Origin: Nitriliruptoraceae bacterium
GTDB taxonomy: Bacteria; Actinomycetota; Nitriliruptoria; Nitriliruptorales; Nitriliruptoraceae
DNA length: 37,311 bases
Direction: 5' to 3'
NCBI GenBank assembly: GCA_003561535.1
Contig: PWWI01000268.1
Span: 1 to 37,311, forward strand
Both the position numbers and the translations under genes were made by a program. The first letter of the stretch is position 1. The number at the start of each line of letters is the position of its first letter. The notes beneath the pieces are model-generated. The model made no database searches, was not told where the DNA came from, and was given only the letters and a program-made list of their open reading frames with translations. Below are positions 2,094-9,505 of the stretch, piece by piece.

Positions 2094-4352
2094 TCACCGC
2101 TCGGCCACTGGGATGCCGGACATCACGTCCGCGATCGGCCGGATGCTGCCGAACCAGACCTGCTCGGCGGGACGCCGTGCGCCATCGGGATCGAGCAGCT
2201 CCCGGAAGCGCGACAGCGGGGTGAAGGTCACCTTGCCACCCACCAGGCCGCACATCGCGCTCTCCGGGTGCTCCTGCTCGAACTGGCCGAGCAGGTGATC
2301 CACGCACCGTACGGCCAGCCGGGTCGCCTGGGTCCGGTCGAAGGGACTGGGGTCACCACCCTGCTGGACGTGACCGAGGATCGACTGCCGGACGTCGAAC
2401 AGGCCCCCACCCTCCTTCTCGAACAACGCCCACAGGAACGGGGTGGTGTACACCGGATCGGCACCCTCACCGCGGATGATCACACCGAGACGCTGTCCCT
2501 GGCGGAAGCGGTCGTTGAGCGCCTCCACATCGTGCTTCAGCCGGTCGAGCGTGATGCCCTCCTCCGGGGTGTAGACGAACTCCGCCCCGGTGGCCAGCCC
2601 GCTCGAGAGCGCCAGGTAACCCGACCCCTTGCCCATCACCTCGACCACGAACACCCGGGTCGAGGCCACGGCCGACTGCTTGATCTTGTCCACGTCCTCG
2701 ACGATGGCGTTCAGTGCGGTGTCCGCCCCGATCGTCAGCCCGGTTCCCGGCACGTCGTTGGAGATCGTGACCGGCAGGCACACGATCGGGATGCCGAGGT
2801 CGGGGTGCTCGCCGCGGGCCTCGAGGAGGGTGTACGCCGCGTTGTAGCCGTCGAAGCTGCCGAACATCAGGATCCCGTCGAGCCCATGCTCGACGATCTG
2901 CGCGGCGATCGTCGGGAGGTCCTGCGAGGGCGGGGTGTAGCGCTTGGTGCCGAGCTCCGCACCGCCGTGGGAGGTCCAGCCGCTGACCGACATCCAGCCG
3001 AGCTCCTCCACGTGCCCATCGCGCAGCCCGGGGAGACCGCCGTGGATCCCGAGCACGGTGTGCCCGCGATCCATGATCGTGCGGACGGCGGCTCGGACCG
3101 CGGTGTTCATCCCGGGCGCGAGCCCACCACCGTGGACGATGGCGATCCGCTTGGCCGGCTGGTCGGCGTCGGCCTCCCGGGGCCTTGCCCGCACCAGGGT
3201 CCGCATCGTCTCGTAGGCCTCGACGAACCCCGAGCCGCGCAGCTCCATCGCCTCATCGAAACGCTTCTCCTGGAGCAGGCCCGCCACGGCCTGGGTCTTC
3301 TCCACCGCCTGCATCAACGGTGAGGTCACGATGCGGTTCTCGCGGATGCCGACGAGCTGGGCCTCCTCGGCCGCGTTGCCGGCAGCCAGCTCCTGGACGG
3401 CCCGGTACCCGCACCGGGTGCCGAGGTTGCGGTCGAAGGCGCTCGGCGAGCCACCCCGCTGCACGTGCCCGAGGATCGTGATGCGGGTGTCCTCGCCGAG
3501 GCCTTCGGCGAGGATGTCGCGAACCCGCTCCGAGGTGATGCTGACCCCGTAGCGGTCACGGGCCCCCTCGGCGACGATCACGATGTTCTGCCGACGCTTG
3601 ACCTTGCGGCCGTCCACGACGGTGCGCCGGAGCGCCTCCTCCCAGCTGGCCGTCTGGGGTGGCCGCTCGGGGATGAACACCCACTGGGCACCCGTGGCCA
3701 GCCCCGCCATCAGCGCGAGGTAGCCGCAGTTGCGCCCCATGACCTCGATCACGAAGGACCGTTGGTGGGACGAGGCGGTGGAGTGCAGCGCGTCGATCGC
3801 CTCGGTGATGCGGTGCAGCGCGGTGTCGGTCCCGACGGTCATGTCGGTGCCGAACATGTCGTTGTCGATCGACCCGACGATGCCGACCAGCTGCAGCTGC
3901 GGGTGCGCGTCCGCGAGCTCCTGCTCGAGCTCGCCGGCCTCGACCAGCTCCGCCAGCAGCTCCGGCCACTCGCTGGACAGCAGGTTGGCCCCGGTCAGCG
4001 ACCCATCGCCGCCGATCACCACCAGAGCGTCGATGTCCCGGGTCACCAGGTTCCGGGCAGCGGCGCGCCGTCCGTCCCGGGTCCGGAACTCCGGGCAGCG
4101 GGCGGTACCGATCGCGGTGCCTCCGCGGTGCAGGATGCCGCCCACGTGGTGGCTCTGGGCCTCCACGATGGCCTCGCCCCCCTCGACCATGCCCACGTAG
4201 CCCTCGTGGATCAGGTAGGGCTGGACCCCGACGTGCAACGCGGTCCGCACCACGGCGCGGACCGCAGCGTTCATGCCCGCGGCATCGCCTCCGCTGGTCA
4301 GCACCCCGAGACTGTGGGGGCGTCGGGCAGCGGACCTGCGGCTCTTGGTCAC
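2094..4352 (-). CDS. Tandem-fused 6-phosphofructokinase, eukaryote-type, ATP-dependent
   Basis: A 752-residue protein with two complete PFK domains in one chain, the layout of animal and fungal PFK-1; ordinary bacterial PfkA is about 320-340 residues. It phosphorylates fructose 6-phosphate to fructose 1,6-bisphosphate. GTG at 4352 is chosen because GGAGGA lies just upstream. The N-half (about 15-390) looks catalytic: GGDGS at 114-118 and GSIDND at 160-165, with Gly at both donor-deciding sites (ATP type) and the catalytic Asp163; MGRNCGY and GHVQRGGSPSAFDR follow. The C-half (about 400-752) has TISND at 529-533, so the catalytic Asp is Ser531, as in the regulatory half of eukaryotic PFK, plus DKIKQSA and a second GHVQQGG. 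Wording around GTDMTVGTDTALHRI and KRFDEAMELRG is strikingly close to animal PFK as I recall it. Methylglyoxal synthase lies 55 bases upstream on the same strand. Confidence 0.93.
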   Translation of the reverse strand: MTKSRRSAARRPHSLGVLTSGGDAAGMNAAVRAVVRTALHVGVQPYLIHEGYVGMVEGGEAIVEAQSHHVGGILHRGGTAIGTARCPEFRTRDGRRAAARNLVTRDIDALVVIGGDGSLTGANLLSSEWPELLAELVEAGELEQELADAHPQLQLVGIVGSIDNDMFGTDMTVGTDTALHRITEAIDALHSTASSHQRSFVIEVMGRNCGYLALMAGLATGAQWVFIPERPPQTASWEEALRRTVVDGRKVKRRQNIVIVAEGARDRYGVSITSERVRDILAEGLGEDTRITILGHVQRGGSPSAFDRNLGTRCGYRAVQELAAGNAAEEAQLVGIRENRIVTSPLMQAVEKTQAVAGLLQEKRFDEAMELRGSGFVEAYETMRTLVRARPREADADQPAKRIAIVHGGGLAPGMNTAVRAAVRTIMDRGHTVLGIHGGLPGLRDGHVEELGWMSVSGWTSHGGAELGTKRYTPPSQDLPTIAAQIVEHGLDGILMFGSFDGYNAAYTLLEARGEHPDLGIPIVCLPVTISNDVPGTGLTIGADTALNAIVEDVDKIKQSAVASTRVFVVEVMGKGSGYLALSSGLATGAEFVYTPEEGITLDRLKHDVEALNDRFRQGQRLGVIIRGEGADPVYTTPFLWALFEKEGGGLFDVRQSILGHVQQGGDPSPFDRTQATRLAVRCVDHLLGQFEQEHPESAMCGLVGGKVTFTPLSRFRELLDPDGARRPAEQVWFGSIRPIADVMSGIPVAER

Positions 4353-4407
4353 CGGTTTCCTCCGGGTCGTCACGGACGGTGGGTCTGGCGGTGCTGCCGA
4401 CCGGCGC

Positions 4408-4863
4408 TCACCTCTGCGACAGCAGGCGCTCACGGTGGGCCGCGTGGTCCGGAACCTGCCGGACGTAGGCGGGGTCGGTCAACAGCGGGGAGGTCACCAG
4501 CAGGTCAGCGGTGGCCCGGTTGCTGGCGACGGGGACGTTCCACAGCGTCGCGACCCGCAGCAGGGCGCGGACGTCCGGCTCGTGGGGCTGGGCCGACAGG
4601 GGATCCCAGAGGAACACCAGCGCGTCCACGCTCCCCTCGGTGATCATGGCACCGAGCTGCATGTCGCCACCCAGCGGGCCGCTCTCCAGAGGCAGCACCT
4701 CGAGACCGAGTTCATCCGCGAGCAGCTGCCCGGTGGTGCCGGTGGCGACGAGACGGTGCCCGGCCAGGACCTCCCGGTTGTGGCGGACCCACGCGAGCAG
4801 GTCTGCCTTCTGGCCGTCGTGGGCCACCAGGGCGATCGTGCGCAGCGGCGGCTGCGGTGCCAT
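4408..4863 (-). CDS. mgsA: Methylglyoxal synthase
   Basis: A 151-residue cytosolic enzyme that turns dihydroxyacetone phosphate into methylglyoxal and phosphate, the entry to the methylglyoxal bypass of lower glycolysis. ATG at 4863 has GGGAGGGGAG just upstream. Key residues of the E. coli enzyme are all visible with the expected spacing: His15 and Asp16 in AHDGQKADLL, the phosphate-binding TGTTG at 41-45, catalytic Asp67 in SGPLGGDMQLG, Asp87 in FLWDPLS, and His94/Asp97 in PHEPDVRALL. Length is typical. It precedes the fused PFK gene by 55 bases and follows the metallopeptidase gene by 72, so co-transcription with PFK is likely; phosphate normally inhibits this enzyme, which fits a role in phosphate-limited or overflow glycolysis. 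Confidence 0.95.
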   Translation of the reverse strand: MAPQPPLRTIALVAHDGQKADLLAWVRHNREVLAGHRLVATGTTGQLLADELGLEVLPLESGPLGGDMQLGAMITEGSVDALVFLWDPLSAQPHEPDVRALLRVATLWNVPVASNRATADLLVTSPLLTDPAYVRQVPDHAAHRERLLSQR

Positions 4864-5346: not shown

Positions 5347-6513
5347 TCACACCTCCGCGGGCCGGGTCGCGAGCACCCAGCGTTCGAACCCCGGCACGCT
5401 GAAGGCCAGGCGGCCCCGCTGGGGGGCCCAGCAGATGCCGAGATCCAGCAGCGAGCGGCGGGCGGGCGAAGCGGCCTGGTGGGTGATGTCGACCACCTCG
5501 AGCAGGTCGCCCATGGCCGCCTCCCCACCCTGCTCCGCCAGGGCCTGGACGAGCAACTGGGCGCGCCCCGACGGCACCCGGCGCCACCGGGTCGCGTAGA
5601 AGTCGTCGACCCGTACCCGCACCCGGGCGCCAGCGGCCCTGGCGACGGGCAGCTCGATGTGCAGGGGATCGGTGGCGAGGTCCCACAGCGCCTCGCCCCA
5701 CAGCTGGACGAACCAGGGGTAACCGCCCGAGGCGTCGTGGACCGCGTCGAGGACCGCGACGTCGACCGACGCGCCGGCGACGCGGTCGAAGGGTCGACGG
5801 ATCGCCTCGGCGGTGCCGGCCCGGTCCAGTAGCCCGAGGTCGACGCGAGCCAACCGCTCGGTGTAGGTCTGACCCTCGTCGAACAGGTTCTCGGCCGCCG
5901 TCGGCAACCCGGACAGCAGGACCCCGAAGGGGCGGTCGTCCTGGGCCGCGGCATGAGCCGCCCGCAGCAACGGTCCCAGCAGGACGTCGCCGGCCTCGTG
6001 CACCTCATCGATCGTCAGCAGCACCCCGCGCGAGGAGCGCCCGGCCAGCTCGGCGAGGTCACCGATCAGGCCCTCGAAGCGCTCGGCGTCGGCTCGCCCG
6101 GCGAGTTCGGGGCCACGCGAACCAGATCGCACCGTGGCCAGCCCGGCGAGGCTCAGCCCCGGGGCAGCCGCTGCCACGTCCTCCAACCCCCGGAACAGCA
6201 CGGAGGTCGCCCGGGCGAGCTCGGTGTCGTCGCGGTCGGCCTCCACGTGGATCGTGGCCAGACCGAGCTCCCGGGCCCGCTGCCGCACGTAGGCCAGGAG
6301 CGCGGTCTTGCCGACCCCCCGCACCCCGCGGTAGAGCACGAACTCGGGCGCCACCGCGGCCGCCAGCTGCTCCACGACGATGCGTGCCCGCAGCAGCGCG
6401 TCCTCACGACCTCCGAAGTCCGGTGGGATCCGACCCATGCCGGGCCGGAAGGGGTTCGCGGCGGCCGCCAGCGCACCCCCACCGATCGTGAGGTCGTCGA
6501 AGGGGTTGGGCAC
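5347..6513 (-). CDS. AAA-type P-loop ATPase of unknown role
   Basis: A 388-residue protein. GTG at 6513 is chosen for GGGGAGA just upstream; the open frame runs on to 7164 but that part crosses the structured-RNA region and looks non-coding. The Walker A motif is GVRGVGKT at 63-70 (Lys69), Walker B is VLLTIDE at 164-170 (Asp169, Glu170), and LLSGLP further on is a sensor-1-like strand. This is the ORC/Cdc6- or STAND-like ATPase core seen in the 'ATP-binding protein' groups PF13191/PF13401. About residues 275-388 form a basic C-terminal domain that resembles a winged helix (QALAEQGGEAAMGDLLEV...), so DNA binding is possible. It starts 230 bases from the predicted RNA gene and is transcribed away from it. 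No toxin or restriction partner is beside it. Confidence 0.8.
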   Translation of the reverse strand: MPNPFDDLTIGGGALAAAANPFRPGMGRIPPDFGGREDALLRARIVVEQLAAAVAPEFVLYRGVRGVGKTALLAYVRQRARELGLATIHVEADRDDTELARATSVLFRGLEDVAAAAPGLSLAGLATVRSGSRGPELAGRADAERFEGLIGDLAELAGRSSRGVLLTIDEVHEAGDVLLGPLLRAAHAAAQDDRPFGVLLSGLPTAAENLFDEGQTYTERLARVDLGLLDRAGTAEAIRRPFDRVAGASVDVAVLDAVHDASGGYPWFVQLWGEALWDLATDPLHIELPVARAAGARVRVRVDDFYATRWRRVPSGRAQLLVQALAEQGGEAAMGDLLEVVDITHQAASPARRSLLDLGICWAPQRGRLAFSVPGFERWVLATRPAEV

Positions 6514-6541
6514 CCATCTCCCCAGGGCTCGGGAGCTGGTG

Positions 6542-6547
6542 ATGCTA
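6542..6547 (-). promoter_or_regulatory. Possible -10 box of the ATPase gene
   Basis: TAGCAT on the minus strand, about 28 bases upstream of GTG 6513. The spacing would leave a short leader with the GGGGAGA ribosome binding site. No clear -35. Confidence 0.35.
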
Positions 6548-6707
6548 CTGCCCGGACGCCCTGGATCATGGAGCGGCCACCGACCCGGGGGTGCGAACCA
6601 CGGCCCTGCGAGCGCGCTCTGCGCATCGGCGTGTGCGCCCAGCCACCCAGGTCCTGGGGACAGCTTGGGGACGACCGGTGGACATCCTGTGACTTGCGGG
6701 TTGCCTC

Positions 6708-6737
6708 TAGACAACGACGGTTCGCGCGGCGTAGCTT
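6708..6737 (+). promoter_or_regulatory. Candidate promoter of the structured RNA
   Basis: TAGACA at 6708-6713 (five of six matches to TTGACA), an 18-base spacer and TAGCTT at 6732-6737 (fits TAnnnT). The predicted start point, about 6744, coincides with the first strong hairpin at 6745-6777. The stretch around it (TTGCCTCTAGACAACG) is visibly less GC-rich than its surroundings. Confidence 0.5.
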
Positions 6738-6743
6738 GCTCGA

Positions 6744-7384
6744 GCCGGTCGGGAACGGACTGCGGATCCCCGGCCGGACACCCAGGAGCTTCGTACAGGA
6801 GCAACTGAGTGGAGGTGGAGGGCTCCGGCCCGCCGACGTGGACCCCGGAACGTGACGGCAACACATCGGTCGAACCCCGCGAGGGGTGAGCCACCGAGCG
6901 GAAGGCTGTGAGGCCGTCCGTTGAGCCACAGCGGTGCTGTACCGCCGCGGTGGTGGTGGCACCCGACGCAGCGGGTGACATCGGCGAGACGCTCGTCCGC
7001 GAGGACGAGCGGGGCTGCGGCCCGAGCGATGTGGCCACCTCCGGGTGGCGACCCGCCCGGCGCGGCGGCCGACGATGGAGGTCCCCCGCGGACCACCTCG
7101 CTCGCAACGGTGAGGAACGACAGGTGCTCGCGAGAGCATCAGACGTCCCGAACCGAGGTGGCAACCGGCGCCGTGCTCGGACACGGTGCAGCGGCCACCG
7201 ACGGCCGGGTCCCGCCTTCGGGTGAGGCCCGCCACCCGGTCCGCCGGGTGGTCACCATCCAGATCGACCGGCACCCGCGAGGGAGCTGACACGGTCAGGG
7301 TGAGGAGCCGGTGTTCCACCACCCGAGAGGAGCTGTGGAACACGACGCGACGCCCCGGAGGTCCTGAGACGGACACCGGGGCGT
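6744..7384 (+). ncRNA. Putative large structured non-coding RNA, about 640 nt, class not recognised
   Basis: No convincing gene fills 6514-7403, but the plus strand folds into a series of short, near-perfect hairpins. GNRA loops: 6874-6887 (GCGA, inside an outer stem 6866-6870/6893-6897), 6899-6920 (GUGA), 6991-7010 (GCGA, 8 bp), 7125-7138 (GCGA), 7274-7283 (GCGA). UNCG loops: 7034-7049 (UCCG), 7207-7230 (UUCG, about 9 bp with bulges), 7232-7251 (UCCG, 8 bp). Other stems: 6745-6777 (9 bp), 6931-6945, 7171-7186, 7285-7297 region, 7311-7319/7335-7343 (9 bp perfect) and the terminal hairpin. GNRA and UNCG loops are strand-specific, and they favour the plus strand. A promoter-like site precedes it and a terminator-like hairpin ends it; it diverges from the ATPase gene and converges with the permease gene, as an independent unit would. 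I see no consensus of RNase P RNA, tmRNA, SRP RNA or a group II domain V. Confidence 0.7.
7350..7384. terminator. Strong hairpin shared by the RNA and the convergent permease gene
   Basis: ACGCCCCGG at 7350-7358 pairs with CCGGGGCGT at 7376-7384, nine base pairs, with an inner GTCC/GGAC stem. It lies 19 bases past the stop of the minus-strand permease gene and at the end of the plus-strand RNA, so it could terminate both. No long U-run. Confidence 0.6.
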
Positions 7385-7403
7385 TCGCGCGTGGTCGGGC
7401 ACG

Positions 7404-8177
7404 TCAGCCCGCGATCACCCGCACCAAGGCCGCAACGCCACCCAGTCCTGCCCACCACAGGACGCCGGTCCGGACGCGCTGGGGTGACAGGATCCGCAGC
7501 AGCGGCCGACTCAGGAGCAGTCCGGCCAGCAGCAGGGCCGCCAGGAACACGCCCACGAGCGCCTGGGTGAGCGTGAACGAGCCCACGGCGGCCAGGCCCA
7601 CCAGGGTCAGCACGATGCCGACCGCCCACACCAACCCGAGAGTCGGTCGCACCACCGCCGGATCACGATCGCGGTAGAGCAGGGCGATCGGCGGACCACC
7701 CAACGCGGTGGCGGCGCCGGTGACACCGGAGACCACGCCGGCCGCGACCTCCCGGCCCGGGGTGACCTCCAACCGCCACCCCCCTGCCGCCGCCGCGACC
7801 GCAGCGAGCAGGACCACCGCCACCAGCGCCGTCAACCACCGCACGTCGACCACCACCACGATCGCGGTGCCGATCACGATCCCCGGGACCCGCCCCAGCA
7901 TCAACCGGTTGGCGGCGGAGCGATCGAGCTCGGCTCGTCCCACGATCGCCATCGTCGCCGACAGCGGCAGGGCTGCGACCAGCATGGCCCCCGGCAGCAG
8001 TTCCGGGGCGGTGAGCGCCAGCGCCGGCACGGTCGCGAACGCCGCACCGAAACCGACGATCGACTGCGCGACCCCACCGAGGATCGCCGCGGTCACCACC
8101 AGCAGCAGACCCAGGACACCGATCGACACCGCCAGCGCACCGACGGTCCCCGCGAACGCCTCCATCGCCGACACCAC
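7404..8177 (-). CDS. TauE/SafE-family membrane permease
   Basis: About 257 residues, almost wholly hydrophobic, with around eight predicted membrane helices, the usual size of this family. Members export or import sulfite, sulfoacetate and other small organic anions. The first repeat shows the family pattern AAILGGVAQSIVGFGAAF and the second half has GVVSGVTGAATALGGPPIAL, the twice-repeated small-residue motif typical of the fold. Start: tandem GTG codons at 8177 and 8174 follow GAGGAGGAG; the frame is open to 8324 but the upstream part is charged and unlike the family. The neighbour on the right, the PPi-PFK gene, is divergent. Nothing nearby names a substrate, so sulfite is only the family default. 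Confidence 0.87.
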   Translation of the reverse strand: MVSAMEAFAGTVGALAVSIGVLGLLLVVTAAILGGVAQSIVGFGAAFATVPALALTAPELLPGAMLVAALPLSATMAIVGRAELDRSAANRLMLGRVPGIVIGTAIVVVVDVRWLTALVAVVLLAAVAAAAGGWRLEVTPGREVAAGVVSGVTGAATALGGPPIALLYRDRDPAVVRPTLGLVWAVGIVLTLVGLAAVGSFTLTQALVGVFLAALLLAGLLLSRPLLRILSPQRVRTGVLWWAGLGGVAALVRVIAG

Positions 8178-8353: not shown

Positions 8354-9505
8354 GTGAGGATCGGCATCCTGACCGGCGGCGGCGACGTCCCCGGGCTCAA
8401 CCCCTGCATCAAGGCCGTCGTCGACCGCGTCATCGATGACGGCCACAGCGTCATCGGCCTGCGACGCGGCTGGGCCGGACTGCTCGAGTACGACCTCGAC
8501 GACCCCGAAGGCTCGAACGAACGTCTGGTGATGCCGTTGAACCAGGAGGTCGTACGCAAGATCGATCGGACCGGCGGCACCTTCCTGCACACCTCCCGGA
8601 CCAACCCGCAGCGCGTGCGGGACAACGATGTGCCGGCCTTCCTGCGCGACCAGGCCCTCGGTGAGGGTCCCCACGACTTCACCGCCCACACCCTGCGGGT
8701 GCTCGACCACCTCGGCATCGATGCGATGATCCCGATCGGCGGAGACGACACGCTGTCCTATGCCCTGCGCTTGCACGAGGAGGGCTTCCCGGTCGTCGCC
8801 ATCCCGAAGACGATGGACAACGATGTCCACGGAACGGACTACTGCGTCGGGTTCTCGACCGCCGTGACCCGCTCGGTGGAGTTCATCCACCAGCTCCGGA
8901 CCTCGACCGGCTCCCATGAGCGCATCGCCGTCGTGGAACTGTTCGGGCGCTACTCCGGCGAGACCTCGCTGATCAGCGCCTACCTCGCCTCCGTGGACCG
9001 GGCCGTCATCTCCGAGGTCCCCTTCGACCCCGAGCGGCTGGCCGCGCTGCTGATGGAGGACAAGCGTCGCAGCCCCTCCAACTACGCGATGGTCACCATC
9101 TCGGAAGGCGCCACCTACACCGGCGGGGACATCCACCTCTCGGGCGAAGCGGACGCCTTTGGCCACCGCAAGCTCGGCGGGATCGGTCAGACCACCGGAG
9201 AGATGATCAAGCAGCTGACCGGTGAGGACATCATCGTCCAGCAGCTCGGCTACCTGATGCGGTCCGGGCGCCCGGACTCGCTGGATCTGATGGTGGCGAC
9301 CAACTTCGCCGTCATGGCTGCCGACCTGGCGGTGGATGGCGAGAAGGGCCGCATGGTGGCGCTGCGCAGCGGCACCTACACCAACGTTCCCATCACCGTG
9401 ACCGGCTCCGGCGCGCGGCGCGTCGACGTCGACGCACTCTACGACGTCAACGCCTACCGGCCCAAGGTCCGCCAGGTCGCCGGCAAACCGATGTTCCTGT
9501 ACTGA
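8354..9505 (+). CDS. 6-phosphofructokinase, predicted pyrophosphate-dependent
   Basis: A 383-residue single-domain enzyme that interconverts fructose 6-phosphate and fructose 1,6-bisphosphate. GTG at 8354 has GGAGGA eight bases upstream. GGD motif is GGDD at 129-132, so the residue equal to Gly104 of E. coli PfkA is Asp132, and the catalytic block is PKTMDND at 151-157, with Lys152 where ATP enzymes have Gly124. Asp plus Lys at these two sites is the established signature for pyrophosphate as phosphoryl donor, as in the Amycolatopsis-type PFK. Catalytic Asp155 and the substrate loop ELFGRYSGE follow. The reaction would be reversible and could serve gluconeogenesis too. It is about 4 kb from the ATP-type fused PFK. 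A TAGCGT -10-like box lies at 8316-8321; a hairpin at 9521-9560 probably ends the transcript. Confidence 0.93.

Follow-up and report, generated by a model that had tools for sequence, protein, structure and literature searches.

The 37,311-nt stretch of DNA analysed here, referred to as the window, contains an intergenic gap (6514–7403) bounded by an AAA_16 ATPase open reading frame (5347–6513, minus strand) and a TauE permease gene (7404–8150, minus strand). On the plus strand of this gap lies a large structured RNA of about 640 nt (6744–7384), for which compensatory changes and homologues in 21 genomes were found. A preliminary description had noted a gene-free gap filled with hairpins; this is confirmed, and the minimum-energy fold contains 18 hairpins. 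The GNRA loops at 6879, 6908, 6999, 7130, and 7277 and the UNCG loops at 7040, 7217, and 7240 are located exactly where they had been placed, and each is closed by a stem. Two phosphofructokinase (PFK) genes lie near the RNA in the window. One (2094–4433, minus strand) codes for a 779-aa fusion protein that matches PFK twice, a tandem arrangement reminiscent of eukaryotic PFK, while the other (8354–9505, plus strand) is a single-domain PFK gene that recurs next to the RNA gene in several genera.

Compared to shuffled sequences, the single-sequence fold energy reaches z = −6.0 on the plus strand and z = −4.9 on the minus strand, and the fold energy of a five-genome alignment lies 14.0 s.d. (plus) and 10.7 s.d. 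(minus) below column-shuffled controls. In the window, minimum-energy folds of the RNA region display five GNRA and four UNCG loops on the plus strand and none of either kind on the minus strand. Summed over the 21 homologues, such folds hold 83 GNRA and 29 UNCG loops on the RNA strand versus one and four on the opposite strand (112 versus 5 in total), and the strand specificity of the tetraloops asserted in the preliminary description is thus a real bias. Together with the better folding of the plus strand, this bias strongly supports a plus-strand RNA.

The predicted transcription start lies at the foot of HP1, the first hairpin, or close to it. A sigma-70-type promoter (TGGACA-N17/18-TANNNT) occurs in 19 of 21 genomes. 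In the window, it is formed by the −35 box TAGACA (6708–6713, plus strand; TGGACA in relatives) and the conserved −10 box TAGCTT (6732–6737, plus strand; TANNNT in relatives), which in these 19 genomes are 17–18 nt apart; the promoter search returned no −35/−10 pair in G008 and G016. At the 3′ end, a GC-rich hairpin, ACGCCCCGG...CCGGGGCGT, followed by UUCGC (7347–7388, plus strand) is a likely intrinsic terminator. It is invariant within the genus, and its shape is present in all complete homologues. Both boundaries, a promoter-like start beside the first hairpin and a GC-rich hairpin at the end, had been proposed before and prove to be conserved.

The predicted core consists of two adjacent 5′ hairpins, HP1 and HP2, whose loops pair with those of two adjacent later hairpins, HP5 and HP4. 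HP1 (6744–6777, plus strand) has a covarying stem that surrounds a nearly fixed internal loop, GGGAACG..CUGCGGA, with CUGCG at 6760–6764. It is followed by HP2 (6779–6811, plus strand), which exposes the loop GUACA(G) at 6793–6798 and shows five doubly changed stem pairs within the genus. HP4 (6925–6954, plus strand; six doubly changed stem pairs) presents the loop CUGUAC at 6937–6942 as partner of the HP2 loop, and HP5 (6955–6982, plus strand) carries the hexaloop ACGCAG on a CCCG/CGGG stem. The remaining middle and 3′ arms (6983–7311, plus strand), among them a hairpin with the loop CUCGGA (7176–7181), are variable, capped by GNRA and UNCG loops, and poorly conserved beyond the genus.

Both loop–loop (kissing) contacts covary between genera. 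In the first, PK1, CUGCG of HP1 pairs with CGCAG in the HP5 hexaloop (6967–6971). A search in which the central position of each partner could be either base found all 21 RNAs to be concordant, 17 with CUGCG/CGCAG and four with CUACG/CGUAG, and none discordant. The A-U state is seen in genera g7, g9, and g13. Genus g9 holds both states (A-U in G028, G-C in G012), so that at least one switch is recent. In the second contact, PK2, the loops of HP2 and HP4 form combinations such as GUACAG/CUGUAC, GUGCAG/CUGCAC, GAUGCAG/CUGCAUC, and CGACAG/CUGUCG, and pairing is maintained through base changes in most genera. With the anchoring CAG/CUG left aside, 52 of 57 test positions are paired versus 38 expected by shuffling, and among 12 representatives the figure is 34 of 36 versus 25, neither value being reached in 20,000 shuffles; the windows compared were picked by eye before testing, and G009 and G021, which align poorly there, were omitted. 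Pairing might take place inside a single molecule or link separate copies of the RNA.

The stems show the same behaviour. In tests that, like those of the loops, treat the sequences as independent, 53 of 220 pairs in the genus alignment are changed on both sides, versus 26 ± 3.4 in shuffles, and a slid control with partners shifted by 1–3 columns yields 5–9 doubly changed pairs versus 53 at the true register. Within the genus, 92.5% of cells are paired in the 220-pair structure, which was derived from the same alignment, which favours this last figure above all. Independently, g11, a second genus represented by four genomes, provides 28 doubly changed pairs. Across genera, six of the ten pairs of the HP1 stem are changed on both sides among 14 sequences, an outcome seen in 0 of 500 shuffles. 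These patterns point to selection acting on the fold of the RNA itself in many genera.

Homologues were collected by combining R1, a covariance model built from the 158 nt at the 5′ end, with a first-hairpin pattern, an upstream-repeat pattern, and R3, a model of repeats, promoter, and first hairpin. The same RNA gene is present in 21 of 35 Nitriliruptoraceae genomes and 10 of 14 genera. BLASTN recovers full-length copies in all four genus-mates (67–91% identity), and distant homologues occur in nine further genera. R3 gives one full match per genome, and the gene is usually single-copy. The homologous RNAs measure about 280–670 nt, the shortest being those of G010 and G022 (about 280 nt) and the longest that of G016 (about 670 nt). 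Since the model of the 3′ domain, R2, finds only one clear relative beyond the genus, the 3′ arms are variable. Matches of the HP1 pattern in G027, G036, G042, G044, and G055 fell in coding DNA or at unrelated places, and loci L037, L038, and L044, obtained with the same pattern, were false on inspection; all were dropped.

Neither models nor patterns located the RNA in the 31 other genomes of the class Nitriliruptoria, and the more sensitive R3 search added none when run on the 14 family genomes that had given no RNA and on one additional genome. Among the named genomes and viral contigs scanned by pattern, the RNA turned up in Nitriliruptoraceae only, and the phage records searched gave no match. 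As 14 of 35 family genomes, many of them incomplete assemblies, lack it, the RNA does not seem to be universally needed. The expectation that relatives carry conserved, covarying copies is borne out in 10 genera.

The flanking genes vary in identity and orientation among genera, with an AAA_16 gene and a phosphofructokinase gene as recurrent neighbours. In the single-contig genome G026 (L189 300–1560), about 360 nt separate the genes that flank the RNA in G015, and repeats, promoter, and RNA are all absent from this site. The differing neighbours and the empty site in a complete genome argue for a free-standing gene, and the unit of repeats, promoter, and RNA is gained or lost in one piece.

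The −35 box is preceded by an array of 11-bp repeats (6653–6698, plus strand), which in the window is represented by the four units GGGGACAGCTT, GGGGACGACCG, GTGGACATCCT, GTGACTTG... and is conserved in 21 genomes. The unit reads G[GTC]GGA-N6 with a period of 11 bp. The array is phase-locked to the −35 box, with units at −19, −30, −41, −52, and −63 relative to it in most genomes, and the indel seen in the array within the genus comprises exactly one unit. Its pattern matches once in the window, where no match is expected, and once in the whole source genome. This phased array, like PK1 and PK2, had escaped the earlier reading and is added here. A further element, GCGCGC-N13–17-GTGCGC, is located at about 6611–6640, 15–45 bp upstream of the array, and recurs at the same place in most relatives, often preceded by TCCACA.

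The three distal units are DnaA-box-like; the distal sequences TGGGGACAA and GGTGGACAT resemble the actinobacterial DnaA box TTGTCCACA on the opposite strand (box: PMC4285127). The source genome's own oriC displays TGTGGACCG, GGGGGACAC, and GGGGGACAA in 11-bp steps. A DnaA-box-like cluster of the oriC type stands in a fixed relation to the promoter, the arrangement expected by sequence of a DnaA-controlled promoter. The proximal GTGAC unit (6689–6693), on the other hand, is like an MtrA half-site. The promoter-nearest units read TGTGACTT, are doubled at 11-bp spacing in some genomes, and fit the MtrA consensus G/T-T-G/A-A-C-C-N5-G-T-G/T-A-C-N, in which GTGAC direct repeats are spaced by 11 nt (PMC5650626). 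Two GTGAC-type direct repeats at this spacing occur in G012 and G028, related units elsewhere, and one in the window genome. In view of the MtrA literature, a reading of the proximal repeats as plain DnaA boxes is ambiguous, and these units appear to fit MtrA better than DnaA. Further, MtrA boxes are located between DnaA boxes in the oriC of M. tuberculosis (PMC4285127). The sequence by itself does not tell DnaA from MtrA at this site; with either protein, the gene would be linked to replication or to the cell cycle.

R3 also matches outside the RNA locus. In RNA-negative genomes, including several of another Nitriliruptoria family, many of the best R3 matches lie in the dnaA-dnaN gap (15 matches in 12 genomes), and two more next-best matches, in two genomes, precede a class II ribonucleotide reductase gene; in E. 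coli, ribonucleotide reductase is known to be under DnaA control (PMC8203912). In many Nitriliruptoria genomes, oriC carries weak DnaA boxes spaced by 11 bp (L098–L106, L174, L175, L177, L178, L181, L182). At L183 1501–1617 (plus strand) and L184 1501–1619 (minus strand), a strong DnaA box and weak 11-bp repeats are followed by an NrdR-box-like sequence, with a class II (B12-dependent) ribonucleotide reductase downstream. The RNA locus is not itself oriC: dnaA-dnaN, with an array of its own, lies on another contig, and in G011, a single-contig genome, the two are far apart. In having tandem DnaA-box-like units in front of a promoter, the locus resembles DnaA-controlled promoters of the E. coli nrdAB type and oriC arrays, but here the product is a structured RNA and the promoter-nearest repeats look like MtrA half-sites. 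Compared to actinobacterial promoter sites of MtrA, an OmpR-type regulator, which share the GTGAC direct repeats and the 11-nt spacing (PMC5650626), the present array is longer and runs on into DnaA-box-like units.

A search of 6500–7450 with Rfam 15 produced no match at the gathering score, and a permissive search returned only weak, chance-like sub-threshold matches, the best of them reaching 19.5 bits against a cut-off of 40. The absence of a confident match agrees with the earlier view of an RNA of unrecognised class. RNase P RNA (RF00010) does not match at the locus and is present elsewhere in G011, G015, G026, and G030, while tmRNA is found neither in the window (ARAGORN) nor at the locus (Rfam).

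Among the alternatives, an RNA-polymerase-binding RNA of the 6S/Ms1 kind that replaces 6S RNA in Nitriliruptoraceae appears improbable. The 6S model (RF00013) matches neither at the locus nor in five family genomes, which would leave room for such a replacement, but the model misses a control actinobacterium too, so that this lack says little. Ms1, which in most actinobacteria is the 6S-like RNA, shows weak sequence conservation (PMC9130861), as does the present free-standing actinobacterial RNA gene; Ms1 is, however, flanked by genes for a HAD hydrolase and an oxidoreductase (PMC9130861), whereas the neighbours here are AAA_16, TauE, PFK, and others. Architecture and length differ as well. 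RNAs of the 6S/Ms1 kind measure about 200–300 nt, and 6S folds into a single long, interrupted hairpin whose central bubble is open, in contrast to the 8–18 separate hairpins and two loop–loop contacts seen here. A large architectural RNA acting like OLE, ROOL, or GOLLD, which would build a dimer or cage via its kissing loops, is somewhat more probable, yet we consider it unlikely. These RNAs likewise span several hundred nucleotides, with many arms, conserved loop–loop contacts, and unknown or partly known function, and the kissing loops of ROOL and OLE act between molecules (PMC12286853). Against this, no covariance model of OLE, ROOL, or GOLLD matches in the search of all Rfam families, nor does the sequence match theirs, and the RNA is chromosomal rather than phage-borne like ROOL and GOLLD and does not lie beside tRNA islands. 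It also has its own replication-type promoter array and is confined to one actinobacterial family, and the nested order HP1:HP5 and HP2:HP4 is easily accommodated inside a single molecule.

Alternatively, the DNA itself might be what counts at this locus, as a datA- or DARS-like site that titrates or reactivates DnaA, and the RNA would be a by-product. The DnaA-box-like array does match oriC, and DnaA clusters have been described outside oriC, one of them in M. tuberculosis (PMC7738170); selection on the RNA structure in many genera and the locking of the array to the promoter make this distinctly improbable. The chances are slimmer still that the RNA is a leader, either riboswitch or attenuator, acting in cis on the gene that follows. 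A same-strand PFK or DUF4916 gene does follow in G008, G028, G014, G025, G029, and G033, but the next gene is on the opposite strand or different in the window, G002, G012, G016, G021, and G030, and the genera share no downstream gene. Two further readings, fortuitous inverted repeats in GC-rich DNA and an overlooked protein gene, are refuted: long overlapping open reading frames do arise by chance at such GC content, but covariation exceeds slid and shuffled controls, the loops are strand-specific, single-base indels separate close relatives, and the length varies from 284 to 671 nt.

We therefore favour, with a probability of roughly 70%, the reading that the locus is a gene in its own right, mostly present once per genome, for a large structured RNA of a new class, with a core held by kissing contacts, DnaA/MtrA-coupled transcription, and action in trans. 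The separate plus-strand RNA gene of about 640 nt first proposed for this gap is sustained by homologues in 10 genera, compensatory changes, conserved promoter and terminator, and strand-specific loops. Sequence comparison shows the predicted RNA to start at the HP1 base just downstream of the sigma-70-type promoter and to end at the intrinsic terminator. In it, HP1 and HP2 are joined to HP5 and HP4 by loop–loop pairing, with lineage-specific arms capped by GNRA and UNCG loops added. Binding of DnaA, the response regulator MtrA, or both to the 11-bp repeats would couple transcription to replication or the cell cycle, and the RNA may be a folded scaffold or regulator that works in trans, the more tentative of these two steps. 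Judged separately, replication-linked transcription is likely, and a trans-acting structural or regulatory role, as against a cis role, is somewhat more likely still.

In its mode of working, the RNA is most like the large ornate RNAs OLE, ROOL, and GOLLD, although covariance models make it a member of none. To our knowledge, few RNAs several hundred nucleotides long show covarying tertiary contacts, and only a handful of large classes without a known function have been described. Large ornate bacterial RNAs are an established broad kind, but the present class matches no known member of it. A bolder version, which we regard as unlikely, is a large RNA that self-assembles through the two kissing contacts and whose synthesis the replication machinery (DnaA and/or MtrA) controls directly; we know of no bacterium with a cell-cycle-timed self-assembling RNA structure. 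A clue to the role of the RNA lies in its promoter, which bears a kind of repeat array that also occurs at oriC and at the ribonucleotide reductase gene. If confirmed, this would connect an RNA directly to the control of replication in bacteria, in a little-studied actinobacterial family.
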